From: a virus
DNA: 34,004 nt
Virus record (IMG/VR): IMGVR_UViG_3300032323_002101
Coordinates: 1-34,004 of that record
Strand: one strand, 5' to 3'
Below are positions 5,967-26,848 of the stretch, piece by piece. Position numbers and translations under genes: made by a program. Each line of letters begins with the position of its first letter. Position 1 is the first letter of the stretch. The notes under the pieces are model-generated. The model saw only the letters and a list, made by a program, of their open reading frames with translations, did no database searches and was not told where the DNA came from.

Positions 5967-5984
5967 TACCATAAATACTGGTAT
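5966..5984 (+). promoter_or_regulatory. late box inside a start-codon hairpin
   Basis: ATACC at 5966-5970 pairs with GGTAT at 5980-5984, which includes the first two bases of the ATG at 5983. The nine-base loop contains the late box ATAAATA (5971-5977), which ends five bases before ATG. A transcript started from this box at T4 spacing would begin at the ATG and lack the 5' arm. The 5-bp stem alone is weak evidence. Confidence 0.4.
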
Positions 5985-8158: not shown

Positions 8159-8181
8159 ATAGATGTACGATGGACATCTAT
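8155..8181 (+). promoter_or_regulatory. late promoter box plus start-codon hairpin of the giant protein gene
   Basis: ATAAATA at 8155-8161 is a T4-type late box. A perfect 8-bp stem, ATAGATGT (8159-8166) with ACATCTAT (8174-8181), leaves a 7-base loop ACGATGG holding the ATG at 8170. RNA read through from upstream would enclose the start codon, whereas RNA started from the late box at T4 spacing would begin near 8167, after the 5' arm. No Shine-Dalgarno is present. Confidence 0.6.
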
Positions 8182-13072: not shown

Positions 13073-13735
13073 ATGAGAGCACAAGAATTTATTTGCGAAG
13101 ATTTGGAAGAAGGTTGGAAAGAGCGCCTGGCTGCCGCCGGCATAGGTGCAGCCATGACCTTGGGTGGACAGCAAGCCCTCAAGCAATATCAACCTATTCA
13201 TCCTGCACAACCTGCACAGCCTCAACAACAGCAACAACAGCTTACTCCCAAGCAAATACTGATACAAACAGCCAAGCAGGCCGGTATTGCTGGCGACGAA
13301 CTGGCACAACTGTTAGCACAGGCCTCGCACGAAACACTGAACTTTACTCGCATGCGAGAAACGGGCACACCTGAATACTTTACTAAAAAGTATGAGCTCA
13401 ATAAAAGAAAAGCCAAGATCCTGGGCAACAAAGTTCGTGGTGATGGAGAACGATACAAAGGGCGTGGCTTCATACAGCTCACTGGCAGAGACAACTACAC
13501 TCGTGCTGGCCGAGCATTGGGCTTGCCACTGGACGCCAATCCTGAATTGGCAGCCCAACCCGAAGTTGCCGCAAAGATTGCTGTATGGTATTGGAACACC
13601 CGAGTAGCTCCCAAGGTATCAGACTTTACTAATACCAAGGCAGTGACCAAGAAAATCAATCCTGCGCTGAAACATCAAGATCGTAGACAGCAACAGTTTA
13701 CCAAATATCAACTAGCACAATATGAGAGCGCATGA
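13073..13735 (+). CDS. GH19-like muralytic enzyme with capsid-targeting-like N-terminus
   Basis: A 220-residue protein. It begins M-R-A-Q-E-F-I-C-E-D, the recurrent tag of this region. A short Ala/Gly segment (about 20-35) and a Gln/Pro-rich linker (about 40-62) lead to a GH19 chitinase/endolysin-type domain (65-200): A-S-H-E87-T with the general-acid Glu of the family, G-D-G-E-R-Y-K-G130-R-G-F-I-Q-L-T-G-R-D-N-Y, then A-A-K-I-A-V-W-Y-W. It should cleave beta-1,4 links in peptidoglycan. Normal endolysins lack such an N-terminus, so it may be packaged and used at entry; a lysis role is the alternative, but the holin is 12 kb away. ATG follows the previous TAA by one base without a Shine-Dalgarno, suggesting coupling. 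The gene overlaps the next by 14 bases. Confidence 0.85.
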   Translation: MRAQEFICEDLEEGWKERLAAAGIGAAMTLGGQQALKQYQPIHPAQPAQPQQQQQQLTPKQILIQTAKQAGIAGDELAQLLAQASHETLNFTRMRETGTPEYFTKKYELNKRKAKILGNKVRGDGERYKGRGFIQLTGRDNYTRAGRALGLPLDANPELAAQPEVAAKIAVWYWNTRVAPKVSDFTNTKAVTKKINPALKHQDRRQQQFTKYQLAQYESA

Positions 13736-14582
13736 GTTCCTTAAAGAAGTACAAATACCCAGAGACATAGAAGAGTTTCTGGATAGCCTCAATCCCGATG
13801 ATTGTGGTGTGGAAGAAATAGGAGCCTATCGTATACACTATGAAGGGTTCACCAGCGACTGTAAAAGCAGTGCGGACTATCGTAGAGATCCTGAAGCAGT
13901 ATATCAACAGGTGTATCAGGATTTTATCCGTCGTGAAGGTGGTGCCCGCCCCTTGATACAAAACATGGTAGGCGATGAAGATTTTCCCGTCCTGTTCAGC
14001 ATATTCCGAAAGAAACAAGCAGTGGCAGAAGTCAACTACCCTGACGAACTCACTGTAAGCGATCGCATACAGGATTATTTCTACAAGCGTGGATATCAGC
14101 TGGCTGGCGAAGGGCGCGATCAAATGGCTTTTGAGAGTCCACGCGGCACCATAGTCAAGGTCTTGGGCATAGGCGAAAGCGAGCGAGAACAAATTGTAAA
14201 AGACTACGTGGCTTTCTTCCAGAGAAATCAACGTAATCCTTACTATCCAAGAATCTACAACGCAGGCAATTTCACTGTGGATGGCGAAACATACTTTGTG
14301 TATGAAATGGAATATCTTGACTATGTGGGCAATGAAGAAGCCACGCTGGAATACCTTGAAGACCTAATGGATGCCACAGCACGTGGATATGCTCAGGCGT
14401 TTCAACAGAATCGTCCCTTGCCAGCCGAGCTAGATGCGGATGAAATTCAAGGCTTGCTCTTGGCCACCGAAGATCTCATGGATGCGCTGGGAGAATCGGC
14501 GCCCTTGGATTTGAGCAACATAGAAAACATACGTCGTAGAAGCAACGGGCATTTAGTTATAATGGATCCTTTTAGTCTATGA
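13722..14582 (+). CDS. kinase-like (possible pseudokinase) protein with capsid-targeting-like N-terminus
   Basis: A 286-residue acidic protein starting M-R-A-H-E-F-L-K-E-V. The first 110 residues are not recognised. From about 120 the layout recalls a minimal protein-kinase or aminoglycoside-kinase fold: a strand with R-G-T-I-V-K146-V-L (candidate ATP Lys), a helix with E-R-E-Q-I-V-K-D-Y, N-P-Y-Y-P-R-I-Y-N-A-G, then hinge-like Y-F-V-Y-E-M-E-Y-L and, at the very end, N-G-H-L-V-I-M-D-P-F in the place of the D-F-G metal motif. A canonical H-R-D catalytic loop is not seen, so it may be inactive or divergent. It could act on host proteins if ejected. Start overlaps the previous gene by 14 bases; ATGA overlap with the next. 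Confidence 0.75.
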   Translation: MRAHEFLKEVQIPRDIEEFLDSLNPDDCGVEEIGAYRIHYEGFTSDCKSSADYRRDPEAVYQQVYQDFIRREGGARPLIQNMVGDEDFPVLFSIFRKKQAVAEVNYPDELTVSDRIQDYFYKRGYQLAGEGRDQMAFESPRGTIVKVLGIGESEREQIVKDYVAFFQRNQRNPYYPRIYNAGNFTVDGETYFVYEMEYLDYVGNEEATLEYLEDLMDATARGYAQAFQQNRPLPAELDADEIQGLLLATEDLMDALGESAPLDLSNIENIRRRSNGHLVIMDPFSL

Positions 14583-15469
14583 GAGCTCAAGAATTTTTAA
14601 GAGAATACAGCCGTGACATAACCAAGCAACGCTTGGGGGCTCAAGTGCTGGATACATTTCGTAAAGAAGGTTCGGGCCGCATACGCAGAGTATTGGGTCG
14701 TGATCTTGGCCCGCAGGACAGCAATGACGATATCATAGAAGCACTGATCCGCATGCTGGAACTGGCCGACCCTACCGCCAACAAGCAGTACATGCCTTGG
14801 CTGGCTCGCACCTACATCAAAGGTGAAACATTTCTTGAGGACGTTCTCACACAGGTGCGTGAGTATTTGGACAAGTTTCACACACTGAATCAGCGCCGTA
14901 AAATACCAGCAGGGCGCAACGACATTTTACGATACAGCAACTTTGGCGACTTTATGAGTGTGGTGGATGAATATCCAGATCCTGAAGCACCTGAATTAAA
15001 AGACAAGGGCAATGCCGAAGAAATATATCAGGATCAGCAGGTCAGAGTGATTGTGCCCTATGATCAAACCGCGGCCTGCTACTATGGTCAAGGTGCTCGC
15101 TGGTGTACAGCGGCCACCAAGGGCAAGAACTATTTCAACGACTATGCTGAAAACACACCCTTGCTCATAGTGATACCGCAACAGCCACAACACCCAGGTG
15201 AAAAGTATCAGCTGTGGTTTGACTACAGCATTGGCAATGTGCATGTATACAATGACGATGACTATTTGGAAACGTATCACGATCGCGGTGAAGACTATAT
15301 CATCAACAATGAACAAACAGGTCAGTTCATGAACGAAAAAGATCAGCCAGTGAGTTTGAAAAGTTTAAAAGGCAGATTTGGCGCCAGTTTCGATGCCTTG
15401 GTCAATGCTTACTTGGCCAAGTTCCCCGACGAAGCATATCGTGTACAAAAGAACTTTGAGGTTAATTAA
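14579..15469 (+). CDS. WCTA-motif protein with capsid-targeting-like N-terminus
   Basis: A 296-residue protein beginning M-R-A-Q-E-F-L-R-E-Y. An N-terminal helical half (about 15-130) is followed by a compact beta-rich domain (about 150-260) with A-C-Y-Y-G-Q-G-A-R-W175-C-T-A-A-T-K-G-K-N-Y-F, L-L-I-V-I-P-Q, and Y-Q-L-W-F-D-Y. This G-x-x-x-R-W-C-T-A core recurs in proteins of marine phages and plasmid PcfJ-type proteins; its biochemical role is not known to me. Cys176 next to Trp/Arg could be catalytic, but that is a guess. ATGA overlap with the gene before and two bases to the gene after place it in the tagged-protein run. Confidence 0.75.
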   Translation: MRAQEFLREYSRDITKQRLGAQVLDTFRKEGSGRIRRVLGRDLGPQDSNDDIIEALIRMLELADPTANKQYMPWLARTYIKGETFLEDVLTQVREYLDKFHTLNQRRKIPAGRNDILRYSNFGDFMSVVDEYPDPEAPELKDKGNAEEIYQDQQVRVIVPYDQTAACYYGQGARWCTAATKGKNYFNDYAENTPLLIVIPQQPQHPGEKYQLWFDYSIGNVHVYNDDDYLETYHDRGEDYIINNEQTGQFMNEKDQPVSLKSLKGRFGASFDALVNAYLAKFPDEAYRVQKNFEVN

Positions 15470-15471
15470 GT

Positions 15472-16902
15472 ATGAGAGCACAAGAATTTGTATCTGAAAT
15501 CAGTGATGAAAAGTTGCAAGACTATTTAAGTCGTGCTGGCCGTCGAGTTGACTCAAGATTAGAGCGTATGGCTCAGGCCAGAGATAGACTCAACAAAGGC
15601 TATGAAATCTATCATGCTGAAAATCCTACACGCATAGTACATCGTTTTGAAGCTGATACTCCTGCTGAGGCCAAACGCTATTATGAACGTTACAATGCCA
15701 ACTATGATAGCGACGTAGACTACGATTTGAGATTGCGTCGTGCCACTGGATTAAATGAAAATGCTGTTAGCAATTTAGAGAAAAGTCTAAAAAATCCTCA
15801 CAGCTATGATGCTATAGATCACATGATGCAGTCCATTGCAAAAAAACATGGTATCACTGGAAAAGAACTGCATGATCGTTTTGTAAAGAAACACGGCCGG
15901 GTTCCAGATGATTGGATCAAGGATCGCGTGACAGAAAACTTTGCCGGCGGCAACAGTATGTCTACTGCAGATATGATTGCGTATCTAAGACAGCATCATG
16001 ATACAAATCTACATCAGGATTATCTTGATCACATAAACACTTTTGGCAAGTTTGCATTGAAAAATATTCCAGTAAACACACTTAAAACAGAGTTGTCTGG
16101 ATTGGATCGAGCCAAGGTAGAACGCTATAAGCAGATGGATTTCTCTAAAGCTCCTCCTATTGTGACGGGCGACGGTTATATATTAGATGGTTATCATAGA
16201 GCTGTAGCGGCAAAAGAGTTAGGTATTCCTACTATCCGAGCTTATGTGGGTATCAAGAGTGTAAATGAAGACTTGGTCGAAGCTCGAGCTCGATATGAAA
16301 TGACCGATCTTGATCCTTGGACATTTGATCAGACTCCAGCAGGTTGGCGTAGTTTGCCTACTTCGGCACGCCAAGCAGATGCTATCAACGCCTATATTGA
16401 CGTCTATGTCAAAAATGGAAAGTTTGTTGGTGCCCCCGAAGGTGCCAAAACACTAAGACCCTATATTTTGTATTGGCACTTGGGGCAAGTGCTCACACAA
16501 ATGGGTCGCAATGTCATGGCAGTTAGTGCGATGCGTCAAGCCTTGGATGATGATCCAGGTTGGAATGCTTATGTTATGGCCACTATATCGTTCTTGAGAA
16601 AAGATCGCAAAGATTTTGATCATTGGGCACCGCTTGCTCGTGGCAATGAAGAAACGATAAAAAGATTAACAGCTGGTTGGGGACTTCCTTACAAACAGGC
16701 CTATGCTGGAAACAAAGCAGTTGAAGAAAACTTTGCAGATGGCAAAGTCAAAGGCAAAAGTCGCCCTGGACGTGTGAAACGTAGTGGTGCGTCATGCAAA
16801 GGATCAGTTACTGATCTGCGAGCAAAAGCCAAGAAATACAGCGGTGAGCGTGCCAAGATGTATCACTGGTGTGCCAACATGAAGAGTGGTCGTAAAAAAT
16901 GA
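15472..16902 (+). CDS. ParB-like-motif protein with repeat module and basic C-terminal tail, tagged N-terminus
   Basis: A 476-residue protein starting M-R-A-Q-E-F-V-S-E-I. Residues 44-77 match the beta-alpha repeat found four times in the giant protein (Y-E-I-Y-H, then I-V-H-R-F-E-A-D-T-P-A-E-A). Residues about 190-265 hold a ParB/sulfiredoxin-like core: P-P-I-V-T-G-D234-G-Y-I-L-D239-G-Y-H-R, the nucleotide-binding D-G-x-H-R motif of that fold. Residues 285-400 are helical. The C-terminus (about 425-476) is a Lys/Arg/Gly-rich module, K-S-R-P-G-R-V-K-R-S-G-A-S-C-K-G then Y-H-W-C-A-N-M-K, possibly nucleic-acid binding. Internal G-L-N-E-N, R-V-T-E-N and D-L-V-E-A sites mark module edges. ATGA overlap with the GNAT gene. 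Confidence 0.8.
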   Translation: MRAQEFVSEISDEKLQDYLSRAGRRVDSRLERMAQARDRLNKGYEIYHAENPTRIVHRFEADTPAEAKRYYERYNANYDSDVDYDLRLRRATGLNENAVSNLEKSLKNPHSYDAIDHMMQSIAKKHGITGKELHDRFVKKHGRVPDDWIKDRVTENFAGGNSMSTADMIAYLRQHHDTNLHQDYLDHINTFGKFALKNIPVNTLKTELSGLDRAKVERYKQMDFSKAPPIVTGDGYILDGYHRAVAAKELGIPTIRAYVGIKSVNEDLVEARARYEMTDLDPWTFDQTPAGWRSLPTSARQADAINAYIDVYVKNGKFVGAPEGAKTLRPYILYWHLGQVLTQMGRNVMAVSAMRQALDDDPGWNAYVMATISFLRKDRKDFDHWAPLARGNEETIKRLTAGWGLPYKQAYAGNKAVEENFADGKVKGKSRPGRVKRSGASCKGSVTDLRAKAKKYSGERAKMYHWCANMKSGRKK

Positions 16903-17495
16903 GATTTTTTGAAATAGCTCGCATACCACAGGGTGACTTTGGCGACAAGGATACCTTGGTTGCACCCAAGCACGATGTAGAGAAAAAAGAGTTACCAGGT
17001 GGCAGCGGGTTTACCTATGCTGTGAACAAAACTGGAACTGGTGATTTGGAAATCATGATCTTTGACGGTGATACCTTGGCCGCAGAACTTGATTTATTTG
17101 ATACCCAAGATGTCACTGGTGCCTGGCGAGTAGAAACTGTGGCTGTGAATCCTGAATATCGCAGTCGTGGCCTGGGCAAGGCCTTGTATGGTATTGCTCT
17201 CAGTATATTGAAACTTACTATTGAAGCTGGCGATACACAGACCCGACACGGACAACGCATGTGGTTGATGTTGAACTCAATTCCTGGTGTGGAAGTTGTG
17301 GGCTACAACATGGTACCCGCAGGCCAGTACAAACCACACAAAAATGACACAGTGATTGATCAAAATGAACAGTGGATACGATATACATTTCCTGTGGTAC
17401 CCGGTGTACACAGCATGCGTAGTCGTCGTCCTGGCACTGGTATATACACTGGTCAGACCAGTATGTTGGCACGTTGGACTGGACAAAAGAAATAA
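16899..17495 (+). CDS. GNAT-family N-acetyltransferase
   Basis: A 198-residue protein. The acetyl-CoA site is clear: V-E-T-V-A-V-N-P-E-Y-R88-S-R-G-L-G-K-A-L-Y, the motif A pyrophosphate loop (R/Q-x-x-G-x-G/A). Beta strands before it (D-L-E-I-M-I-F-D-G-D, A-E-L-D-L-F) and I-R-Y-T-F near 165 complete the fold. The substrate is unknown; phage GNATs can modify host proteins or antibiotics-like amines. The N-terminus M-R-F-F-E-I-A-R-I is a looser version of the regional tag. Start overlaps the previous stop (ATGA). It ends with a basic Ser/Arg/Thr tail. Position among tagged genes suggests co-packaging, which is inference. Confidence 0.88.
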   Translation: MRFFEIARIPQGDFGDKDTLVAPKHDVEKKELPGGSGFTYAVNKTGTGDLEIMIFDGDTLAAELDLFDTQDVTGAWRVETVAVNPEYRSRGLGKALYGIALSILKLTIEAGDTQTRHGQRMWLMLNSIPGVEVVGYNMVPAGQYKPHKNDTVIDQNEQWIRYTFPVVPGVHSMRSRRPGTGIYTGQTSMLARWTGQKK

Positions 17496-17505
17496 GTAAT
17501 ATATT

Positions 17506-17688
17506 ATGCGAGCAAAAGAACTCACAGGACACAAATGGTCCGCTAAAATAACCATACGCAATCCTAACTACACAGGTAGGATTGAAGTTTCAGTCTATGC
17601 CCACAATCAAAGTGAAGCACGTCAAATCTTAAAGGCTCAATACAACATTGAAGACCACCACATTGGCTCAATCAAGAAAGCAAAATGA
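17506..17688 (+). CDS. small basic protein with tag-like start, 60 residues
   Basis: Starts M-R-A-K-E-L-T-G-H-K-W, a degenerate form of the regional N-terminus. The rest is one beta-beta-alpha unit (W-S-A-K-I-T-I-R-N, I-E-V-S-V-Y-A-H-N-Q-S-E-A-R-Q-I-L-K-A-Q-Y) that resembles a single copy of the repeat module in the giant protein. Lys-rich end. ATGA overlap with the next gene and a 10-base gap before it support expression in the operon. No named family. Confidence 0.75.
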   Translation: MRAKELTGHKWSAKITIRNPNYTGRIEVSVYAHNQSEARQILKAQYNIEDHHIGSIKKAK

Positions 17689-18890
17689 GAGCACAAGAGT
17701 TTATTTCAGAACGCACAGACCCTAGACTTGAAATTGAAAACATGTCTACAATTCTGCCAGGCAATGCCAGCGAATACTTTGTACGTTTTACCGATCAAGA
17801 CAAAATAGGTTTCTCAGCACGTCAGCATTTTGGTCGCACTCCTGATATAGATGATCCTAATTTCGATCCATTAGCGTTGCCTAGGCCACAAGGGCGACCA
17901 GCACTGTGGTTCTATCCTTTGCAAACTTATCTACGTCATCAAGATCTTTATGCTGGTGATATGCCTTACACATGGCTGGTACGAATCAAACCCGATGCTT
18001 GGTTACAGCCTGTGGATGGAAAAACCAGCAAACAAGACGCACCACTAGGAAAAAACAGAGTAGGCATGCTACGTCGAGATCAAGGCATAGACATGGCTGT
18101 GTTTTTTCAACCCGCATTTAGTGTCGTAGATCGTTGGCATACTCCTAAAATTAAACAAAAACAAAAATTTACAGAATACAAGATCAACAACCAGTCAGGC
18201 ATTGGTAGTGTTCCTAAGAATCAAGAAATTGATTATTTTGGTCTACGAGTAGCCATGCGACCCAGCACATTTTTAAAACTGGCCTTGCCCTTGCCCACAA
18301 CTCCGCAAGATCAGGAATCCATTGAGTATGTCAAACAACAAAAAGACATTCAAGGCATTGGTGCACCGTTCTTGGAAATAGACATACCCGACGGCTGGGA
18401 GTCGGGCGACTTATCTAAACCTGCTAGAGTAGTAGGGCATGACGGACGTCATAGAATGGCAGCTATTATGCAAAGCGAAGGTGACGATCCCATTGAAGTA
18501 CACATATTTCCATTGGGACTGCGTCGACGTCATTTTGATGCCAACCCAGAGTGGGCACAACAACTTAATCAAGTCATTGTTGGACAGCGTGGTAACACTG
18601 TTCAAGGACCGATTTTTCAGGAGACTGCTATGAACGAATCACTTGTATCCTATTTTGACACCATGGAAGATTTTACCGGCGATGCCAAGCCTGGTAGTCG
18701 TCCGGGCAGTATCAAACGCAAAGCCGCTGCCTATTTGGGCAAAGGTTCAGGGGAAAAGTTAAGTCAGACTGATCTAAGACGACTACGAGCCAAAGCCAAC
18801 AAAATGAAAAAATCGGGCAACAAAGCAGAACGTCAACGCGGTATACAGCTCAGTAAACAAGCCAGCTGGTACGACAACTTCCATAAATGA
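17685..18890 (+). CDS. tagged protein with D-G-R-H-R motif and basic tail
   Basis: A 401-residue protein beginning M-R-A-Q-E-F-I-S-E-R-T. Residues 25-250 form an unrecognised domain with L-W-F-Y-P-L-Q-T-Y and W-L-V-R-I-K-P-D. Around 245-275 lies V-V-G-H252-D-G-R-H-R257-M-A-A-I-M followed by I-E-V-H-I-F-P-L, comparable with the ParB/sulfiredoxin D-G-x-H-R nucleotide site and with the G-Y-H-R motif in the protein at 15472. An internal junction F-Q-E-T-A-M-N-E-S-L starts a C-terminal part (about 315-401) that is very basic: S-R-P-G-S-I-K-R-K-A-A-A-Y-L-G-K, then L-R-R-L-R-A-K-A-N-K-M-K-K-S. This tail shares the R-P-G-x-x-K-R plan of the 15472 product. ATGA overlap with the gene before. Confidence 0.78.
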   Translation: MRAQEFISERTDPRLEIENMSTILPGNASEYFVRFTDQDKIGFSARQHFGRTPDIDDPNFDPLALPRPQGRPALWFYPLQTYLRHQDLYAGDMPYTWLVRIKPDAWLQPVDGKTSKQDAPLGKNRVGMLRRDQGIDMAVFFQPAFSVVDRWHTPKIKQKQKFTEYKINNQSGIGSVPKNQEIDYFGLRVAMRPSTFLKLALPLPTTPQDQESIEYVKQQKDIQGIGAPFLEIDIPDGWESGDLSKPARVVGHDGRHRMAAIMQSEGDDPIEVHIFPLGLRRRHFDANPEWAQQLNQVIVGQRGNTVQGPIFQETAMNESLVSYFDTMEDFTGDAKPGSRPGSIKRKAAAYLGKGSGEKLSQTDLRRLRAKANKMKKSGNKAERQRGIQLSKQASWYDNFHK

Positions 18891-18898
18891 CCGTGGTC

Positions 18899-18927
18899 TG
18901 CGCATGCGGTAAATATCTGTATGCGCA
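18899..18927 (+). promoter_or_regulatory. late-box hairpin covering the start codon at 18921
   Basis: TGCGCAT (18899-18905) pairs perfectly with ATGCGCA (18921-18927), whose first three bases are the start codon. The 15-base loop contains TAAATA (18910-18915), ending five bases before ATG. Read-through RNA would hide the start; RNA begun at the late box at T4 spacing would start at the ATG and have no 5' arm. Confidence 0.55.
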
Positions 18928-19220
18928 AACATTTTGTAAAAGTAAATCTAGACCTTTTTTGTGATTGGAAAAAGGTTCCTCCAGTTTATCGATTATATGT
19001 GAATCATGAACTATTCACAGAGCGTACCTATATCTGGGGCGGCACACAATATCTAGAAGAAATTATATCTCTAGATGCGCCCCCAGGAAAATACAACATA
19101 CGAATTGAAAATCTTGGCGATCCTGAATGTCAATTTAAAATACGTAACTTGAAAGTAACCAATGGGTCTGCACAGGTCGTTGATTCAAAAACCTTTGAGA
19201 TAATCAATGAGAGCGCATGA
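18921..19220 (+). CDS. small beta-rich hypothetical protein
   Basis: A 99-residue protein without the regional tag. It reads as a beta-sandwich: K-V-N-L-D-L-F-C-D-W, Y-R-L-Y-V-N-H-E-L-F-T-E-R-T-Y-I-W, I-S-L-D-A-P-P-G-K-Y-N-I-R-I-E-N-L-G, F-K-I-R-N-L-K-V. The middle plan (aromatic-x-L-x-V-D/N-x-x-L-F, then P-G-x-Y-x-I-x-I) is shared with the 144-residue product at 5532, hinting at a common fold such as a ligand- or sugar-binding jelly roll. It has no Shine-Dalgarno and is headed by a late box inside a start-codon hairpin. It overlaps the next gene by 14 bases. Confidence 0.72.
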   Translation: MRKHFVKVNLDLFCDWKKVPPVYRLYVNHELFTERTYIWGGTQYLEEIISLDAPPGKYNIRIENLGDPECQFKIRNLKVTNGSAQVVDSKTFEIINESA

Positions 19221-19389
19221 ATTTATAACGGAAACCACGGTTAGCGGCGGCATAGCCACTGTTGCCATGCCCATGGGTGCAGTATTATCAAGAACCCAGC
19301 CTATAGTGCCCGCAGATAAATATAAAAAGAATTCTAGAAAGAAGAAACCCAATGCTGTCAGACGATTTGAAAACTCTATTAGCCAGTAA
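19207..19389 (+). CDS. tagged short peptide, 60 residues
   Basis: Starts M-R-A-H-E-F-I-T-E-T-T, a full match to the regional tag, then a Gly/Ala/Val/Met-rich hydrophobic stretch (G-G-I-A-T-V-A-M-P-M-G-A-V) and a basic end (K-Y-K-K-N-S-R-K-K-K-P). If the tag is cut after Glu, about 51 residues remain. The size and basic tail recall the small internal proteins of T4 that enter the host with DNA. Overlaps the previous gene by 14 bases and dps by 38 bases; the dps late promoter lies inside it. Confidence 0.7.
   Translation: MRAHEFITETTVSGGIATVAMPMGAVLSRTQPIVPADKYKKNSRKKKPNAVRRFENSISQ
19316..19322 (+). promoter_or_regulatory. late promoter for dps
   Basis: GATAAATA (core 19316-19322) is the best-placed late box in the window: the RNA start expected near 19328 leaves a 24-base leader with an AG-rich Shine-Dalgarno (AGAAAGAAG) before the ATG at 19352. 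It lies inside the upstream 60-codon gene. Confidence 0.6.
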
Positions 19390-19792
19390 TTTTGCTTATT
19401 ACTTAAAGGCACAGATGTTCCACTGGAATGTGGAAGGTCCTGATTTTAGCCAGTTGCACGATTTCTTTGCTGAAATCTACGGAGATGCCTATGGCGCAGT
19501 AGATCCAATTGCTGAGTATATTCGCACACTAGAAGATTATGCTCCAGGCAGCTTAGAGCGTTTTAACGAGCTCAGCCAAATTCCTGGACAGACAAAGATT
19601 CCACGTGCTCGTCTTATGTTAGAAGAGTTATTGGCAGATACTGAAACAATGAAAAGCATTGTTATGCAAGTATTCCAGGCAGCCCAGGCCGAAGGACGTG
19701 AAGACATTGCCAATTTTATGGCAGAACGTCAAAACAGTCATGGCAAGTATGCCTGGCAACTTAAGAGTTTCTTAAAAGACGCAAGAGCATAA
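19352..19792 (+). CDS. dps: Dps-like ferritin
   Basis: A 146-residue four-helix protein of the Dps family, which forms 12-subunit shells that oxidise and store iron and can shield DNA. The signature A-Q-M-F-H24-W-N-V-E-G-P-D-F-x-x-L-H36 is followed by D51-P-I-A-E55. The spacings 12, 15 and 4 equal those of E. coli H51, H63, D78 and E82, so the inter-subunit ferroxidase centre is kept; the position of E. coli D67 is Ala40, with Glu41 beside it. It lacks a long N-terminal Lys tail, so direct DNA binding is doubtful. Late expression suggests action against peroxide and iron in the dying cell or in the virion. The next gene starts two bases after its stop. Confidence 0.93.
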   Translation: MLSDDLKTLLASNFAYYLKAQMFHWNVEGPDFSQLHDFFAEIYGDAYGAVDPIAEYIRTLEDYAPGSLERFNELSQIPGQTKIPRARLMLEELLADTETMKSIVMQVFQAAQAEGREDIANFMAERQNSHGKYAWQLKSFLKDARA

Positions 19793-19794
19793 TT

Positions 19795-20607
19795 ATGGCT
19801 GATTTAAAAAAGATACTTGAATCATTTAATCGCATAGAAAGCATTGACGCCGCACAAAAAAGCGTCAAGCAATTGCCTGCATTATTCAAACCTGCCAAGA
19901 CTTCTCCTCAACTATCAGGGCCTTATCCTGGCAAGAACGCTACACTAGGTTACCTGGTTGGTGAAGGTGATGAAACAGGTTACGGCAGTGAAGTTGGCGA
20001 CACCGGTGCAGATTCTACACCTGATGGTGTGGCACCTGATACAAAAACATTCCTGGAAAGCGACAATGACAATGCTATGAAATCTGCAGTCACTCGTCGT
20101 ATTATGACATCACACATGGAATGGATCACACGCTACGGCATTGAAAATTTAGTCGATGCCATTGATGATACCACCGATGGGTGGGACGGCGAAGAAATAG
20201 GCACCAGCGATGTATCAGCCTATGTGCATCGTGTCAAAGACGAATTAGATCGTCGCACCTTGGGCGAAGCCAAGGCCACAGAAGATGTTATATCCACTGT
20301 AAAAAAGAAACTGGGTGATTATCTATCTGATCTATCCAAAGAGATCAAATCAGACTCTGACTTAAAAGACAAACTACCGCAGGATGTAGACAAAATATCT
20401 CCTGCTGTAAAAACTATCACTACTGATGATGGTAAAGAAATCAAAATACACGGCAATGAAGATGACGGGTTCCGTATTACTATTAAGAATAAACCGCACT
20501 CAGCACAGTTTGAAAGTTTAGACCATGCTGTCATGGCCTGTGAGATGTACCTTAATCGTCGACGCATGCGTACGACACAAAACGAAGATTACTTGGAAGA
20601 ACAATAA
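19795..20607 (+). CDS. acidic hypothetical protein, 270 residues
   Basis: Begins M-A-D-L-K-K-I-L-E-S-F-N, not the R-A-Q-E-F tag, but with an I-L-E-S site that would suit a prohead-type protease. Residues 55-95 are Gly/Asp/Thr-rich and probably unstructured. Residues 95-150 are helical with W-I-T-R-Y-G-I-E-N-L-V-D-A-I-D-D. After T-L-G-E-A-K (about 158) comes a helical segment with K-K-K-L-G-D-Y-L-S-D-L-S-K-E-I, then a small beta-alpha domain (I-K-I-H-G-N-E-D-D-G-F-R-I-T-I) ending in C-E-M-Y-L-N-R-R. No known family. Its stop shares a base with the start of the next gene (TAATG). Confidence 0.75.
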   Translation: MADLKKILESFNRIESIDAAQKSVKQLPALFKPAKTSPQLSGPYPGKNATLGYLVGEGDETGYGSEVGDTGADSTPDGVAPDTKTFLESDNDNAMKSAVTRRIMTSHMEWITRYGIENLVDAIDDTTDGWDGEEIGTSDVSAYVHRVKDELDRRTLGEAKATEDVISTVKKKLGDYLSDLSKEIKSDSDLKDKLPQDVDKISPAVKTITTDDGKEIKIHGNEDDGFRITIKNKPHSAQFESLDHAVMACEMYLNRRRMRTTQNEDYLEEQ

Positions 20608-23600
20608 TGAATTTACTGAACTTGATTGAAGATATTACCACAGGTCACGATAATTTACGTGCTTTGATGCAGGCTGGACAGTCAGGTCAAGACGCTGTAC
20701 TCAACATTGGCGGAGAGACTGTTACCCTGGATCCAATGGAAGCACGTTGGATGTTCAGCAAGTACAAAGCATTCAACAAAGCAGGTCGTCAAGAAGAATT
20801 TTTAAATCATTTGGCAGATCCTGTGAAATTTGATCAGCACATGAAGCAGTTGCGTGATCTCATTGACAAGCAAAAGAACTTTCAGGGTAGTGTGCCTGGC
20901 CAACGTGGCGTTGAAGGTGATACTTACCCAGGTCAAATGGAAGAAGCCGAAGCAGTAGAAGAAATTGCTCAGCAAGATCCCAACAATATGACTCCACAAA
21001 CTCGTGGTAAATTAAACTGGGAAAACATGATCAAGGACTACATGGGCAACAAGCCCTACACCGAGTTTGAATTTTCAAACGATCGTCCACTTACAGTATA
21101 TCGAACACAAGTCTATGCTATTCTTAAAGCATTTGGCAGCATGAAACCTCAAAACAAAGTCAACACCATACTCAACACATTTGGCGACAAGATGGCCACT
21201 GTAGAGTATCTTGACAAGCTACGAGCCAAGGGCCTTATGCCCAAAAAAGTTCCTGCCTATGTACCACCGGGCACTGAACCTGTTCCACCAGGTCAAATGT
21301 CATTGCCTGGCATGGACACACCCAAGATCAAAGAAGCCCAGGCTCAAAAAAAAAATTCTGAAGTAACGGATCGTAAAAATCTAGTAAATCCTCGTGTGGC
21401 TCGCGCATTTCAACTGGCTCGAGCTCGTCAGACCGCAGCCGGCAGCGACATCGAAGCATTTGTTCAGGATGAACTAGAAAAACAAACTCAAACAGATCAA
21501 ACTATCAAAGATCTTGAGGCTGTAAATCGTAGACAAGATGCCGCACTAAAAAAAGCTCAGGTCCTGGACCTACGCCAAGGCAACGACATATCAGACATTG
21601 AAACACAACTGGATCGATTGTCACAAAAATTACAAGTTATCAAAACAGCCAAGCCCGCAGCCAGCCAAAGCCCTGCGGCACAACCAGCAACTCCAGACAC
21701 CGCACCTGCGCCTCAACAACCCACTGCCGCAGAACCTCAAGCTCCTGTTGCCCAGCCTGACATTCAGCAACAACCATCAGACGTGGCAGAACCCACTGTG
21801 GCCAAGAAAAAACCTGCCGCTCGAAAGAAAGCAAGTACTACCAAGGTTTCAAAACCTCGCAAAACAAGCAAGCCTGCACCCACACCCACACCAGACAATG
21901 TATTACAATTCCCGCAAGGTGGTCGCCGAGGACAAGCATCTGATGAGGTCGCCGCAGCCTTGCAAGGCGTTGACATGAGCGACGAGTTGGCCACAGGAAC
22001 TTTTGGGCTCAAAGAAGCCGCCGATGAACTGCAGGTAGGCGATCCTGTGATCATACAAGGCAACGTAGAGTTCAAAGACAAAACCGGAGATGTTGTTGAG
22101 TTTGGTCGAGACAAAAACTTTGTCATAGTTGATCTGTATAACTTTGGCAAACATGCATTTCATGCATCCAATGTTCGTTACAACGATTACGCTGATCAAG
22201 AAGACTATGTAGACGAAGGTCGGATGAAAGATTTGGCCATTGGTGGTCAGACAATGCCTTCCACTAGATCGGGAAACTATGTTGTAATACAGAAAAAACA
22301 AGACACAGTAGTTCCAATACGTCAGCATCCGGATTCTCTCAGCGCACAGAAACATGCTCAGGCCATCAAAAACAAATACCCTGGCATGCAGATTGGCATC
22401 CAAAGTCCTGAAGGCACAGTAAAATATATAGGCATCAAAGAAGCACAGACCAGTATCAACCGTTTTAGTATTGCACAACCACCAGCAGGTGGCACCAACA
22501 AACAACGTGAAGAGTTTTTAAATGCACGTGATCGCTTGTTCCGTCAAATGCAATCAGCAAGCCCTGGCGAAAAAGAAGCCATACGTTTGAAGATTGCTGA
22601 CCTTGAAGGTCAGGCACAGAGTCAAGGCGTCAAGATTCGTGAAACTGAAGATTTAAATCGTTCAGGATACAATGCTATAAAGTCTTTGAGCGACTGGGCA
22701 GAAAAAATGAACGCGATGCGTGAACTACAAAAAGATATTGCGCTGATGAGTGATCCTGAGTCCAAGGCCGCTGTACAACAACGCATTGGCGATCTTTTAA
22801 AAATTGGCATCAAGCAAGGCTACGTCAAAGAAGCACTCAGCGACCGAGCCATGGCAGTGTTGCGTGGACTACAACAGCCAACACAGCCTGCTCCAGTGGC
22901 AGTTGATCTCAATGTTCCCGAGCCAACCAGTGAACCTCAAATGGATCTGGCCACTGCAAAAAAACGTATTGCACAGTTGGATGAGTTGATTCGCATGAAA
23001 GAACAAATTGATCGACTGTTTGTTCGAGCACAAAATGCACGTGGCGGCATCTACCCTGGACTTCAAAGCGACATTGAAGACGAAGAGTTATACGGTGTTC
23101 CGCAGTCAGACAAGGAATATGAGATTCTCAAAGACAAGTACACCAAAGATTTGGCAGCACTACAAAAGTTCATTGCCATGAAGAAGGCAGTGTATCGTGA
23201 AGGTCGAGAGATTGTTGGCGAGAGCTCTGCCCTGGTACGATTAAAACAAGCACGTCAAGCACTGAGCCAAGGCAAAGGACAACTAAACGAACTAGACTTA
23301 TTTGACAAGAGAAAAACTTATTTTAAAATGGGCAACGGTCAATGGATTGTTTCTAATTATAGAAATCTAGGATCATTGAACGGTCCAGCATATGATCAAC
23401 AGTTCTTCAGATCATTACAATGGCTGACTCCATCTGTGGCACAGGCATTGGGTCTAGATGTTAAACTAGCAAACAAAGGCCCAATTGGGTCAAATGTGTA
23501 CGACTTTACTAAACCTACTCAGTTATCACATTGGAATGTAAATCATGATCTAATAGATGCTGTTCAAGACTGGGTTGTAAAAAATCCGCCATCTGCAACA

Positions 23601-24878
23601 GCACCAAATCAGCAAGGCATGGCGGAAGGTAAGCCAAGAGCCGTTGACGCACAAGGCAATCCAGTAGACTGGACAAAAACATATCCTGTAGATGATAGTA
23701 ACAAGACCAAGGCATCAACACCGGGTAGCTATTCTACCTCTAAAGGTGTTGTGACAAAGACTCCTACAGGACTAATACATATGGCACGTAGTAGTCCACC
23801 AAAACCAAACCCAGTGGAAGGTGTGGCAGAAGCACAGACAGATTATCAAAAGCGTCGTCAACGTGAGCGTGATGTAGATGCTGGTAAGCCTGTGAGCCGT
23901 CAGCCTAAGAATCCACAGAATGATTATTTTGCTCGTCGCAAAAAAGAAAAAAAGCACGACATGGATGAGGCTATTAGCAAAAAAGATTTGCTCAGCCGAC
24001 TACAAAAGGATCTGCCAAAAGTTAATGATCCAAAAAATAAAGATGCCAAACCAGTTGTATGGACAGGACCCGGAAAAGATGACTGCGGATACACAGGCTA
24101 TCAAGGCCACGGTATGCCCACTGATAAACAAGAACGAGATCGTATCCGTGCTGATAAGAAAAAAGGTGTAGCAGAGGGTTTGAAACCCGGCGAGTATCAC
24201 ATACACACAGTATATTTCAAAGATGGCACCAAGAAACGTGTACGTGTCACCAGTGATGAAGTTAACGTGGCTGATTACTACAACAAACGTGGCCAGGCTG
24301 TGGACCGTGTAGATTATGATTTTCAAATACACTCCAACATGACTGAACAGTTGGCCATGCCCGGAACCACCATACCACTCAAGAGTGTGATACAAGGCTA
24401 CACTGTGTTTTACAATCCGCAGACTCGTGAAATTAGTGTCACACGCGGCGGTGACAATGCAGAAGCTGCCATTGAACAGGCTCAGTTAAACACACCCAGC
24501 GTAAAAGCCTTTCGACAAGCAGTTGATCGTATGATTGACAAGATTGAAACAGAATCAATCAACGAAGAAACTCAAGATGATCGCAACGCCCGTATCATTG
24601 CCGGCGAAATCGAAGACGCAATGGCACAGGGCAAAGAAGAAGTGGTCAAACAAAAAATCAAACAGTTGATCAACGTAGGTTATACCTTGGACAAGAATGG
24701 CAAGTTGCAACGCATGGGCATGTACGAAGATCAAGCCCTGCAAGAAGAACAGGATGCCTGCTACCGTAAAGTAAAAGCAAGATACAAGGTATGGCCCAGT
24801 GCTTATGCATCAGGTGCATTGGTGCAGTGCCGCAAGAAGGGTGCTGCCAACTGGGGCGAAGGCGGTAAGAAAAAATGA
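20607..24878 (+). CDS. giant mosaic protein, possible packaged polyprotein
   Basis: A 1423-residue protein without overall family match, starting M-N-L-L-N-L-I-E-D. Order: helical N-terminal part (1-245) ending at P-K-I-K-E-A and a run of ten A; coiled region (260-340); Ala/Pro/Gln/Lys-rich linker (345-435); KOW/SH3-like beta domain (about 475-530) with V-G-D-P-V-I-I-Q-G and G-D-V-V-E-F-G; helical and linker modules; D-P-K-N-K-D-A-K-P-V-V-W-T-G-P-G-K module; Y-H-I-H-T-V-Y-F-K-D-G-T module; and a final A-C-Y-R-K-V-K-A-R-Y-K-V-W-P-S-A-Y-A-S-G Cys/basic module. Modules are split by sites such as F-G-L-K-E-A, I-G-I-K-E-A, Y-V-K-E-A, G-M-A-E-G, G-V-A-E-A, D-M-D-E-A and G-V-A-E-G. This suggests gene-cassette accretion and protease processing; both are inference. 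Confidence 0.85.
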   Translation: MNLLNLIEDITTGHDNLRALMQAGQSGQDAVLNIGGETVTLDPMEARWMFSKYKAFNKAGRQEEFLNHLADPVKFDQHMKQLRDLIDKQKNFQGSVPGQRGVEGDTYPGQMEEAEAVEEIAQQDPNNMTPQTRGKLNWENMIKDYMGNKPYTEFEFSNDRPLTVYRTQVYAILKAFGSMKPQNKVNTILNTFGDKMATVEYLDKLRAKGLMPKKVPAYVPPGTEPVPPGQMSLPGMDTPKIKEAQAQKKNSEVTDRKNLVNPRVARAFQLARARQTAAGSDIEAFVQDELEKQTQTDQTIKDLEAVNRRQDAALKKAQVLDLRQGNDISDIETQLDRLSQKLQVIKTAKPAASQSPAAQPATPDTAPAPQQPTAAEPQAPVAQPDIQQQPSDVAEPTVAKKKPAARKKASTTKVSKPRKTSKPAPTPTPDNVLQFPQGGRRGQASDEVAAALQGVDMSDELATGTFGLKEAADELQVGDPVIIQGNVEFKDKTGDVVEFGRDKNFVIVDLYNFGKHAFHASNVRYNDYADQEDYVDEGRMKDLAIGGQTMPSTRSGNYVVIQKKQDTVVPIRQHPDSLSAQKHAQAIKNKYPGMQIGIQSPEGTVKYIGIKEAQTSINRFSIAQPPAGGTNKQREEFLNARDRLFRQMQSASPGEKEAIRLKIADLEGQAQSQGVKIRETEDLNRSGYNAIKSLSDWAEKMNAMRELQKDIALMSDPESKAAVQQRIGDLLKIGIKQGYVKEALSDRAMAVLRGLQQPTQPAPVAVDLNVPEPTSEPQMDLATAKKRIAQLDELIRMKEQIDRLFVRAQNARGGIYPGLQSDIEDEELYGVPQSDKEYEILKDKYTKDLAALQKFIAMKKAVYREGREIVGESSALVRLKQARQALSQGKGQLNELDLFDKRKTYFKMGNGQWIVSNYRNLGSLNGPAYDQQFFRSLQWLTPSVAQALGLDVKLANKGPIGSNVYDFTKPTQLSHWNVNHDLIDAVQDWVVKNPPSATAPNQQGMAEGKPRAVDAQGNPVDWTKTYPVDDSNKTKASTPGSYSTSKGVVTKTPTGLIHMARSSPPKPNPVEGVAEAQTDYQKRRQRERDVDAGKPVSRQPKNPQNDYFARRKKEKKHDMDEAISKKDLLSRLQKDLPKVNDPKNKDAKPVVWTGPGKDDCGYTGYQGHGMPTDKQERDRIRADKKKGVAEGLKPGEYHIHTVYFKDGTKKRVRVTSDEVNVADYYNKRGQAVDRVDYDFQIHSNMTEQLAMPGTTIPLKSVIQGYTVFYNPQTREISVTRGGDNAEAAIEQAQLNTPSVKAFRQAVDRMIDKIETESINEETQDDRNARIIAGEIEDAMAQGKEEVVKQKIKQLINVGYTLDKNGKLQRMGMYEDQALQEEQDACYRKVKARYKVWPSAYASGALVQCRKKGAANWGEGGKKK
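21346..21355 (+). repeat. run of ten A inside the giant gene
   Basis: The 10-A homopolymer encodes Q-K-K-N around residues 247-250. Loss or gain of one A, in DNA or RNA, puts a stop within a few codons in either frame (TAA at 21366-21368 after loss; TGA soon after gain). Slippage would release an N-terminal product of about 250 residues at a module boundary. Confidence 0.6.
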
Positions 24879-25228
24879 GATACAAAGAAATTCTTGAAGC
24901 TTGTTGGACAGGGTACCGTCAAGCAGGCATGAAGAAAAAAGGCAACCGTCAGGTGCCCAACTGTGTGCCTGTGAGCGAAGAGCACATGGAAGAAGATCTC
25001 CGTAAGTGGTTTAAAGAAAAATGGGTGCGTTTTGGACCCGATGGCAAGATACGTGGCGACTGTGCTCGCGGAGATGATTCAGAAGGCAAGCCCAAGTGCT
25101 TGCCACAATCAAAAGCACACAGCCTGGGTAAAAAAGGCCGTGCATCAGCGGCTTCACGCAAGCGTAGGCAGGATCCCAACCCTGAAAGAAAAGGAGCAGC
25201 CATCAACGTGGCGACGAAGAAAAAATGA
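24875..25228 (+). CDS. Cys/Lys-rich small protein, DUF5872-like
   Basis: A 117-residue very basic protein beginning M-R-Y-K-E-I-L-E-A-C-W, a looser tag with an I-L-E-A site. Residues 10-33 carry W-T-G-Y-R-Q-A-G-M-K-K-K-G-N-R-Q-V-P-N-C, and residues 40-117 match the plan K-E-K-W-V-R-F, D-G-K-I-R-G-D-C, K-P-K-C-L-P, then Ser/Lys/Arg-rich, as in DUF5872 proteins. Four spaced cysteines could bind a metal or form disulfides; high Lys/Arg content suggests DNA or RNA contact. Both segments recur as cassettes in proteins of uncultured aquatic phages as far as I recall. ATGA overlaps on both sides. Confidence 0.75.
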   Translation: MRYKEILEACWTGYRQAGMKKKGNRQVPNCVPVSEEHMEEDLRKWFKEKWVRFGPDGKIRGDCARGDDSEGKPKCLPQSKAHSLGKKGRASAASRKRRQDPNPERKGAAINVATKKK

Positions 25229-25323
25229 GAACCTATAACTTTACTATCAACAACAATCCATATACAATTGTGGCTAGAAACTTTAGTCAAGCTCTAGAAC
25301 AGCTACGACAATTGATTGCTTAA
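25225..25323 (+). CDS. 32-residue peptide resembling one repeat module
   Basis: ATG at 25225 (ATGA overlap with the gene before) opens a 32-codon frame: M-R-T-Y-N-F-T-I-N-N, then Y-T-I-V-A-R-N-F-S-Q-A-L-E-Q-L-R. The strand-turn-strand-helix plan is that of the repeats in the giant protein at 8170 and of the 60-residue product at 17506. Its stop forms part of the late-like box before the next gene. Very short, so real expression is uncertain. Confidence 0.5.
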   Translation: MRTYNFTINNNPYTIVARNFSQALEQLRQLIA

Positions 25324-25326
25324 ATA
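25321..25326 (+). promoter_or_regulatory. late-promoter-like box TAAATA
   Basis: TAAATA at 25321-25326 ends five bases before the ATG at 25332, the same spacing as at 1625, 5983 and 18921. The first three bases are the stop codon of the preceding small gene, so the match is partly forced. Confidence 0.4.
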
Positions 25327-25331
25327 AACAC

Positions 25332-25739
25332 ATGAGAAACTATATCAATCTACTAGAAGCCTTGGAACGTGGTTGCCCACCGGCCACACAAAGCATTGAT
25401 GTCAATTTAAAGAATCGCCAAAAGGCCATTGAAGAGTATCACTATGGTCCACTAAATCCCAATGAGCCCAATGAAGAATATTGGCAGGAGTTGGCAGACA
25501 AGTGGAACACCAATGATATTGAATCAGTCAAGAACAATCGTTGTGGAAACTGTGCGGCCTTTGACATTTCGGAAGACATGTTGGACTGCATAGCCAAAGG
25601 CATTGGATCAGAACCTGGTAGTGATGCACACGACACCGTTGATGCTGGTCAACTAGGCTACTGTAAGTTTTTAAAATTTAAATGTGCTGCCAAGCGTACT
25701 TGTGATGCTTGGGTTGAAGGTGGCCCTGTTACAAAATGA
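25332..25739 (+). CDS. Cys-rich protein, likely metal- or Fe-S-binding
   Basis: A 135-residue protein beginning M-R-N-Y-I-N-L-L-E-A-L. L-L-E-A would be a good T4-type prohead protease site. After Y-H-Y-G-P-L-N-P-N-E-P and a helix comes a cluster of cysteines: N-R-C-G-N-C-A-A-F, M-L-D-C-I, G-Y-C-K-F-L-K-F-K-C-A-A-K-R-T-C-D-A-W. The order recalls high-potential iron-sulfur-type and similar small phage Cys proteins; six or seven Cys with two in C-x-x-C spacing support a bound metal. Substrate and role are unknown. ATGA overlap with the next tagged gene. Confidence 0.75.
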   Translation: MRNYINLLEALERGCPPATQSIDVNLKNRQKAIEEYHYGPLNPNEPNEEYWQELADKWNTNDIESVKNNRCGNCAAFDISEDMLDCIAKGIGSEPGSDAHDTVDAGQLGYCKFLKFKCAAKRTCDAWVEGGPVTK

Positions 25740-26251
25740 GAGCGCAGGAATTTGTCACAGAAAAATGGAGCGCCAAATACAAACGCTCTATCAACTGCTC
25801 TAACCCCAAAGGGTTCAGCCAGAAGGCACATTGTGCTGGACGCAAGCTCAAAGAGTTTGCTATCAGTCCTGAGCGTGACAACAACGATGATGTACCGGAT
25901 CCTATTTTTGTTTTGGCCAACCGCTGGTGGAATGCCACAGACAAGCAACCACAGATTGAACATGTGTTAAACAGCCTGGGCTGGAGTATACATCAAGTTG
26001 AGTCAGAGGATGATGCTGTGCAACTACAGCACCGTGATGGTACTACACATTTTATTTCAGCTGATGAATTTGATCCAGATCTCAACGAACAACAACTTGA
26101 TGAACTCATGTTTAAAGGCAGTCAATGTACCAAGGACTGTTCAGGACATCGTGCAGGGTACGAGTGGAGTGCTCGCAAAGGCAATCGCACTGCTAACTCC
26201 TGGAGTCAAAGTTTTAACAACGGAGCGGCAATTCGAAATGCAGGAAGATAA
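25736..26251 (+). CDS. tagged Cys-rich basic protein with two cassette modules
   Basis: A 171-residue protein starting M-R-A-Q-E-F-V-T-E-K-W, a full tag. Directly after comes S-A-K-Y-K-R-S-I-N-C-S-N-P-K-G-F-S-Q-K-A (about 12-31) with a following C-A-G-R-K, then a globular middle (50-120: F-V-L-A-N-R-W-W-N-A, I-H-Q-V-E-S-E-D-D-A-V-Q-L) and a C-terminal module G-S-Q-C-T-K-D-C-S-G-H-R-A-G-Y-E-W with an N-G-A-A end. These modules recur in proteins of uncultured aquatic phages to my memory, always short, basic and Cys-containing. Possible zinc or nucleic-acid binding is inference. Confidence 0.75.
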   Translation: MRAQEFVTEKWSAKYKRSINCSNPKGFSQKAHCAGRKLKEFAISPERDNNDDVPDPIFVLANRWWNATDKQPQIEHVLNSLGWSIHQVESEDDAVQLQHRDGTTHFISADEFDPDLNEQQLDELMFKGSQCTKDCSGHRAGYEWSARKGNRTANSWSQSFNNGAAIRNAGR

Positions 26252-26252
26252 C

Positions 26253-26324
26253 ATGAACGAATATCCAGTGTATCCTGAAGATGATGGATACGATCGACCA
26301 CGCAATCCCTACTCACCAGTATGA
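26253..26324 (+). CDS. possible 23-residue peptide
   Basis: ATG at 26253 follows the preceding stop by one base, behind AGGAAG, and its TGA overlaps the next ATG at 26321. The product is M-N-E-Y-P-V-Y-P-E-D-D-G-Y-D-R-P-R, Tyr/Pro/Asp-rich and probably unstructured. It may mainly keep ribosomes moving into the GIY-YIG gene. Tight fit at both ends is the only support. Confidence 0.45.
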   Translation: MNEYPVYPEDDGYDRPRNPYSPV

Positions 26325-26848
26325 GATTAAACGAAATACAACTAGGCCGTAGTGTTACCTACAACTTCTACGACATCTATGCCTTGGTCAAACAGCGTGA
26401 AGGTCGCCCAGGACTGACCATACGTCTACGCAATGATCGTCCAACAGAAACAAAGAAGTCAGGAATCTACGTTTGGAAACATCCTGACTGGGGTTATTTT
26501 TATGTGGGCATCGCGGCGGCTGATAACTTTACAGCACGTTGGCACAAGCACATACAGAAGTTACTGGACCAATGCACTTCGGCAGCACAGATGCACAACT
26601 GGAAACAGTTTGCTGATAAATTCCGCGACGCTGGGTACGGCATTGATGATCTCAAAGATGTACAGTTACGTTTCTACCCTATTACCACAGTGGCACAACA
26701 TGGCAATAAAGAACAATTAAAAGCAGAACTCAAAGCCATTGAAGACCGACTCACAGCCTGGCTTAACCCTGCTTGCAATTATCAATACGATCCCACTCGC
26801 CCCAGCGCCACACGAATTCCTCCTCAGAGGACACCTAACACACCTTAG
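26321..26848 (+). CDS. GIY-YIG family nuclease with tag-like start
   Basis: A 175-residue protein beginning M-R-L-N-E-I-Q-L-G. The GIY-YIG core is intact: S-G48-I-Y-V-W, Y-F-Y61-V-G-I-A, F-T-A-R73-W with the catalytic Arg, E141 in A-I-E-D-R-L-T-A-W as metal ligand, and N-P-A-C-N near the end. It should make a metal-dependent cut in DNA. GIY-YIG enzymes in T4-like phages include homing endonucleases (SegA, I-TevI) and host-DNA-degrading EndoII. No intron or interrupted gene is seen, and there is no DNA-binding domain beyond the core, so a homing role is less clear; a packaged nuclease acting on host DNA is possible given the context. Confidence 0.85.
   Translation: MRLNEIQLGRSVTYNFYDIYALVKQREGRPGLTIRLRNDRPTETKKSGIYVWKHPDWGYFYVGIAAADNFTARWHKHIQKLLDQCTSAAQMHNWKQFADKFRDAGYGIDDLKDVQLRFYPITTVAQHGNKEQLKAELKAIEDRLTAWLNPACNYQYDPTRPSATRIPPQRTPNTP

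Follow-up and report, generated by a model that had tools for sequence, protein, structure and literature searches.

What do neighbouring genes have in common when their products share nine residues and then go their own ways? The question is raised by the virus fragment IMGVR_UViG_3300032323_002101, whose whole 34,004-base stretch is called the window below. The motif M-R-A-[QH]-E-F-[ILV]-x-E opens exactly seven of its open reading frames (ORFs), each from an ATG; we refer to this start as the tag and name each gene by its first base (13073, MRAQEFICE; 13722, MRAHEFLKE; 14579, MRAQEFLRE; 15472, MRAQEFVSE; 17685, MRAQEFISE; 19207, MRAHEFITE; 25736, MRAQEFVTE). All seven had been pointed out in a sequence-only reading of this DNA, and all are real ATG ORFs with the motif in place. 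We read the tag as a T4-type capsid-targeting propeptide, cut after Glu9 by a gp21-type prohead protease and carried by cargo that is probably ejected, and put the probability of this at about 0.83.

A six-frame search of the window found the core of the motif, [RK]A.EF[ILV].E, seven times, 7/7 directly at an ATG, and as a chance control a looser motif with its positions permuted gave 0.125 matches on average and one at most. Mean pairwise amino-acid identity among the seven ORFs is 0.76 within the tag but 0.07 before and 0.08 after it. Conservation stops at Glu9, and all seven tags have I, L or V at position 7, the P3 residue of the proposed cut. The claim that the bodies are unrelated was nearly right, the exception being a weak similarity of 15472 and 17685 over 200 residues (E about 0.006). 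The claim that the peptide and not the DNA is conserved holds for codons 3 to 6, which vary synonymously (GCA/GCG/GCT, CAA/CAG, GAA/GAG, TTT/TTC), but not for Arg2, which is AGA in 7/7 tags, nor for ATGAGAGC, which is likewise invariant. The identity of ATGAGAGC in all seven, and the presence of the tag on many bodies, would suit a cassette recently spread onto new frames by gene conversion or recombination, with a functionless peptide. This we find hardly credible, given the synonymous variation, the unrelated DNA on both sides, and a conservation that is seen at the peptide level in more than 200 proteins and ends sharply at Glu9.

A DNA pattern of the tag matched at least 120 IMG/VR stretches; 82 of the 82 matches examined open an ORF of at least 50 amino acids, and the pattern read backwards had no match in IMG/VR. 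Among the fetched IMG/VR loci we counted 234 distinct tagged proteins, the bodies of which fall into 36 clusters; related contigs thus bear the motif on dozens of further bodies. The pattern demanded A3, E5, F6 and E9, so these columns are invariant by construction; position 7 is I in 126 proteins, V in 59, L in 47 and M in two, and positions 10 onward are without clear preference. Tagged genes number about seven in the 367 kb relative G004 and seven in the relative G001.

According to the T4 record, the internal proteins IPII and IPIII start with MKTYQEFIAE/A (here and below, a slash after Glu marks the known or proposed cut), as the sequence-only reading had given for IPIII, and IPI starts with MKTFKEF. 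For packaging, the first ten residues of IPIII are enough; within this capsid-targeting sequence (CTS), residues 4 and 7 serve targeting and residues 8 and 10 processing, and gp21 cleaves after L/I-x-E (PMC9026906). Aligned at the Glu, the window tag retains the Q/H-E-F-I-x-E of IPII and IPIII. As with the T4 internal proteins, a short N-terminal propeptide ending in F-I-x-E is common to unrelated bodies, here a nine-residue start on the 234 proteins of 36 clusters, and a gp21 site stands at its end, at the Glu9 conserved in the window. The tag differs from the T4 CTS in having nine residues instead of ten and the consensus M-R-A-x-E-F, in the common V at P3, which is wider than the T4 rule, and in the number of tagged genes, at least seven in 34 kb. 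The cargo differs too, consisting of enzymes and multi-module proteins that have protease sites at module junctions and export-signal-like segments after cleavage sites.

Relatives of the window and their protease

The family B DNA polymerase of the window is 50% identical to that of Phosso, 46% to that of Atu_ph07 and 42% to that of CBB. Its nearest cultured relatives are the jumbo phages Phosso, Atu_ph07, CBB and GAP32, and many IMG/VR contigs are much nearer. Because the polymerase is closest to phages of the Atu_ph07/CBB/GAP32 type, we place the window phage by sequence among the T4-superfamily jumbo phages; at the level of megablast no near DNA match was found in cultured phages. A gp21-type protease (family S77) is present in four large IMG/VR relatives (G004, G005, G006 and G010) and in 4/4 cultured jumbo cousins tested (PA5oct, Atu_ph07, CBB and Phosso); none was found in the window, a fragment of 34 kb.

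With the DNA pattern, the tag was not found in seven cultured records, those of PA5oct, Atu_ph07, CBB, Phosso, syn9, Bellamy and T4, and this form of it therefore appears to belong to an uncultivated lineage. Two matches in CBB looked like chance and were discarded.

Packaging with the DNA and processing after Glu by a prohead protease are also known of the many ejection (E) proteins of the giant phages phiKZ and SPN3US (PMC5694885). The proposed system differs from theirs in other points: the motif of those phages is A-x-E or S/A-x-E, several of their propeptides exceed 100 residues, and the window phage groups by its polymerase with T4-superfamily jumbo phages. Their type of motif was found neither in the window tags, with I, L or V at P3 in 7/7, nor in the capsid proteins of the relatives, which have L-x-E.

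Capsid-protein sites and module junctions

Where else does the proposed cleavage rule apply? In the major capsid proteins of five relatives, L-x-E stands immediately before a conserved stretch, [NS]SAG or ASxG...GNIAT (LLAE/SSAGTTTAGNIAT in two relatives, YLKE/NASSGSTVSGNIAT, MLRE/SATAGATSAGNIAT and FLVE/NASAGATQAGNIAT). Tagged proteins of about 55-80 residues carry a capsid-like peptide right after the Glu, for example MRAHEFIAE/NASAGATGSGSIATVAQ, and so does the 60-residue product of 19207 (19207..19389), MRAHEFITE/TTVSGGIATVAMPMG, which looks like the N-terminal arm that the major capsid protein has in its mature form. Two gene families therefore share sequence that starts behind the proposed cut. 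In 18/25 loci such a small tagged gene is directly followed by an untagged Dps/ferritin-like gene, which in the window lies at 19352..19792 (2.2e-18), so that the pair spans 19207-19792; a possible task of the small protein would be to tether Dps inside the head.

Some modules of the larger cargo proteins are found elsewhere as tagged proteins in their own right. The module NFADGKVKGK at the end of 15472 (16729..16899) follows an internal AVEE/ and stands alone in locus L001 as MRAHEFVTE/NFADGRVKGK; the YKINNQSG module within 17685 (18177..18887), after KFTE/, is found in L001 as MRSHEFIDE/YKINNQSG; and the basic module EQDACYRKVKARYKVWPSAYASGALV that closes 20607 (24747..24875), reading LQE/EQDACYRKVK, corresponds to MRAHEFVSE/AKKDACYNKV in L215. 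Taking in every module, 25/40 internal junctions have [LIVMF]-x-E exactly at the boundary, and most other offsets have none to few. For six modules with clear boundaries, chosen after the result had been seen, the count is 23/23, against a background of 1.8% per position, and the sequences upstream of the modules at these 23 junctions are unrelated (identity 0 to 0.11). The junction test failed for the KWFK and Lys-rich modules, the boundaries of which are poorly placed. With [LIVMF]-x-E at all 23 junctions of the six modules, the large cargo proteins have the appearance of polyproteins that the prohead protease would divide.

A single protein cut at several L/I-x-E sites within the prohead is known from T4 gp22 and gp67, with the difference that in T4 the pieces belong to the scaffold and are for the most part lost from the head, whereas the modules here occur as separate tagged proteins as well. 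Basic multi-module proteins are also encoded by T4-like cyanophages (syn9 gp114, Bellamy 122/123, the T4-GC0119 family), and these share the modules ACYxKVKxRYxVWPSAYASGALV, KWSxKYKxSIxCSNPKGFSQ and CWxGYxxxGMKKK with the proposed cargo proteins. Their module joints are mostly [ILVF]xE and Bellamy 122 starts MKSFKQFQE/SWSNKYKK, but their N-terminal starts are otherwise different, and the syn9 junction QME breaks the P3 rule.

Virion data were available for PA5oct, the record of which flags coding sequences detected by electrospray tandem mass spectrometry (ESI-MS/MS). Its homologue of 14579, EST35_0205, starts MKLFEVFTLYE and was detected. Among PA5oct coding sequences with a tag-like start, 5/7 were detected compared with 93/445 overall (p about 0.005, or 0.012 with the inclusion of an eighth, for which the record gives another start), in a small set for which the tag pattern had been loosened.

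The sequences show the tag and how widely it occurs, its abrupt end at the Glu, an S77 protease in the relatives, the sites in their capsid proteins and the rule at the junctions, and from these we infer strongly that the proteins are packaged and cleaved after Glu; the junction rule, the capsid-protein sites and the detected PA5oct homologue all point towards packaged and cleaved cargo. In the mechanism we propose, the tag would bring proteins with nothing else in common into the head of a T4-superfamily jumbo phage as it assembles. There a gp21-type prohead serine protease would cut behind Glu9, following the [LIV]-x-E rule that it also applies to the major capsid protein, and would likewise cut the [LIVMF]-x-E linkers between the modules of larger cargo proteins. 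The freed cargo (the muralytic enzyme, basic modules, a putative kinase, an acetyltransferase and others) would remain in the head with the DNA and would probably be ejected into the next host, where it may act.

Several points weigh against this reading. The window is a fragment without head genes, and the tag pattern was not found in the seven cultured records. The constant AGA at Arg2 and the invariant ATGAGAGC may have a nucleotide-level role at the start codon. The link to proteomics runs through the diverged starts of PA5oct (MKLFEVFTLYE, MKIKDILVE) and the small set with the loosened pattern. A signal independent of the capsid, directing proteins to a replication compartment or to degradation by the phage's own Clp, is conceivable, as degrons are among the short signals known from protein N-termini and the window encodes a ClpA-like ATPase (2058-4334), besides DnaJ and peptide deformylase. 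It is nevertheless very improbable, since it leaves unexplained the Glu boundary, the internal [LIVMF]xE junctions, the capsid-protein sites and the homologue detected in PA5oct.

Export-like segments behind proposed cleavage sites

Could cleavage also expose something in the cargo? Hydrophobic segments in cargo proteins have a [LIVMF]-x-E within 16 residues upstream in 13/15 cases, compared with 15% at random positions, two of the 13 being capsid-arm-like peptides and not signals. In the window, the tagged GH19 protein 13073 (13073..13735; GH19 2.1e-14) has a second site, LEE, and the export-signal-like segment GWKERLAAAGIGAAMTLGG, and an export-signal-like segment lies behind a [LIVMF]-x-E site in 8/8 distinct GH19 enzymes found. 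In the middle of the large ORF 8170..13071, at 9772-9855, stands VDE/GLGKTLATGALAAAAALGQPAQAQDAG, which resembles a Sec signal peptide complete with its AxA site.

We suggest that the tag or an upstream module may mask the signal as long as the protein is in the cell that makes it, and that the capsid protease may expose it. In multi-module cargo within the head, the protease would split the [LIV]-x-E linkers and uncover Sec or Tat signals; the wall enzyme, unable to leave the cytoplasm of the producing cell and hence harmless to it, would become exportable only after delivery into the next host, a tentative proposal for which we would not claim even odds. Its main rival, which is quite possible though short of probable, sees in the GH19 segment the signal-arrest-release (SAR) anchor of an ordinary endolysin and in LxE a coincidence within a conserved linker. 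SAR endolysins typically carry Gly/Ala-rich segments, the CBB endolysin has an N-terminal transmembrane segment (PMC5259590), and seven of the eight GH19 segments share the start [LV][DE]E/[GD][WI][KR], so that they are probably homologous and do not count as independent cases. An anchor of this kind does not fit the GH19 proteins of L115, L223, L229 and L246, in which the segment is situated deep within the ORF and would have to be freed by cleavage before it could act. Nor does it fit the GH19 protein of L158, with the Tat-like IAE/IDRRGFLGALGAGAMAAAGVPAQA directly after the tag, or the Tat-like segments that follow LEE on other proteins, in L259 and L017 (LEE/[VI]DRRGFLKG); the Pfam TAT matches are under the curated cut-off.

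Cargo, neighbouring genes and meaning

What, then, would be delivered? Every gene and module given here between 8170 and 26251 lies on the + strand. The cargo of the window includes the GH19 muralytic enzyme and a GNAT-like protein. Of the identities suggested earlier, "kinase-like" for 13722 (13722..14582) and "ParB-like" for 15472 (15472..16902) are weak profile matches only, the former to a T7 gp0.7-type PHROG (8e-4). The 13722 product has no match among cultured phages, and the multi-module 15472 also has a weak TPR-like match. The protein of 14579 (14579..15469), the PA5oct homologue of which was detected in virions, has a WCTA domain. In its moderate predicted structure, residues 1 to 7 score under 50 in pLDDT and no helix starts before residue 12, so the tag is predicted to be disordered and outside the fold. 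This model had no match in the PDB, and the relatives found are from phages and Marseillevirus only, with a weak PcfJ-like hint, so that no function was assigned. The multi-module 17685 (17685..18890) has its tag at the ORF start, and 25736 (25736..26251) carries a KWSxKYKRSINCSNPKGFSQ module.

Two larger multi-module products are putative cargo polyproteins: the 1633-residue protein of 8170, which has no N-terminal tag and combines a Lys-rich part after LDE/, the signal-like segment after VDE/ and an amidoligase part, and the 1423-residue protein of 20607 (20607..24878), which starts MNLLNLIE. The looser tag forms proposed earlier fared unevenly. For the GNAT-like protein 16899 (16899..17495), with the short start MRFFE/IARIP, homologues place the body start right after the Glu, and its homologue in L003 is fully tagged. 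The start MRYKEILE/ACW of the basic, Cys/Lys-rich 24875 (24875..25228) is a plausible tag, and the Cys-rich 25332 (25332..25739) has the looser MRNYINLLE/ALER, which may or may not be one. The other two lack the Glu, although the 60-residue 17506 (17506..17688; MRAKELTGH) resembles, as judged by eye, the fully tagged L228, which matches PF16857, a T7-type RNA polymerase inhibitor. The second, a GIY-YIG nuclease-domain protein at 26321-26848 with the start MRLNEIQLG, adjoins the tagged run.

Tagged cargo of the relatives includes NUDIX, M48 peptidase and LysM domains, the PF16857 match (2.9e-6) and a weak ADP-ribosyltransferase-like match. At L216:6653-9449 there are four consecutive tagged genes, among them those for a NUDIX protein and for weakly matching ADP-ribosyltransferase-like proteins. 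T4 Alt is an ADP-ribosyltransferase and is likewise packaged. Judged by these matches, the cargo of the window and its relatives resembles a takeover repertoire. The tag might instead load the prohead with parts for assembly or the inner body, such as scaffold or DNA-condensing filler, which would remain in the capsid or be lost from it in fragments, and not with delivered effectors: many tagged modules are small and basic, 60% of the bodies in the 234-protein set have a net basic charge, IPIII has an effect on T4 head assembly (PMC9026906), and the T4 core pieces are mostly discarded. We regard this as unlikely, though a serious alternative, because the GH19, NUDIX and M48 enzyme domains have no obvious role in assembly and the bodies, unlike a structural core, differ strongly among close relatives.

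T4-like late promoters (TATAAATA, WTAAATA) were not in excess in the window, where the motif often overlaps stop codons. Elsewhere in the window, a 531-residue protein (32245-33840) without a Pfam match has a LADSGGFQ stretch, which we take to be like that of tRNA-guanine transglycosylases, making a 7-deazaguanine DNA modification possible. A cytidylyltransferase-like protein is encoded at 5983-7164 (weak Pfam match); in cyanophage S-SM1 a putative cytidylyltransferase (T4-GC190) is a virion protein (PMC3037559).

By its sequence, the tag array of the window thus appears to be a T4-type capsid-targeting system, much enlarged, with a protease rule that would extend to module junctions. The open-access papers searched make no mention of the tag or of CTS cargo arrays in T4-superfamily jumbo phages. 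Since cargo proteins have no fold in common, little is known of what large phages carry in their heads; with a nine-residue label and a cleavage rule this becomes readable from metagenomes, and the cut sites predict the mature proteins. The tag might serve to bring reporter proteins into phage heads, a use for which the T4 CTS is already a candidate. The junction rule hints at a phage capsid that processes polyproteins into sets of modules, and the unmasking of signals, if true, would be a new way of timing a harmful enzyme. One short peptide may list what these viruses bring into the next cell.

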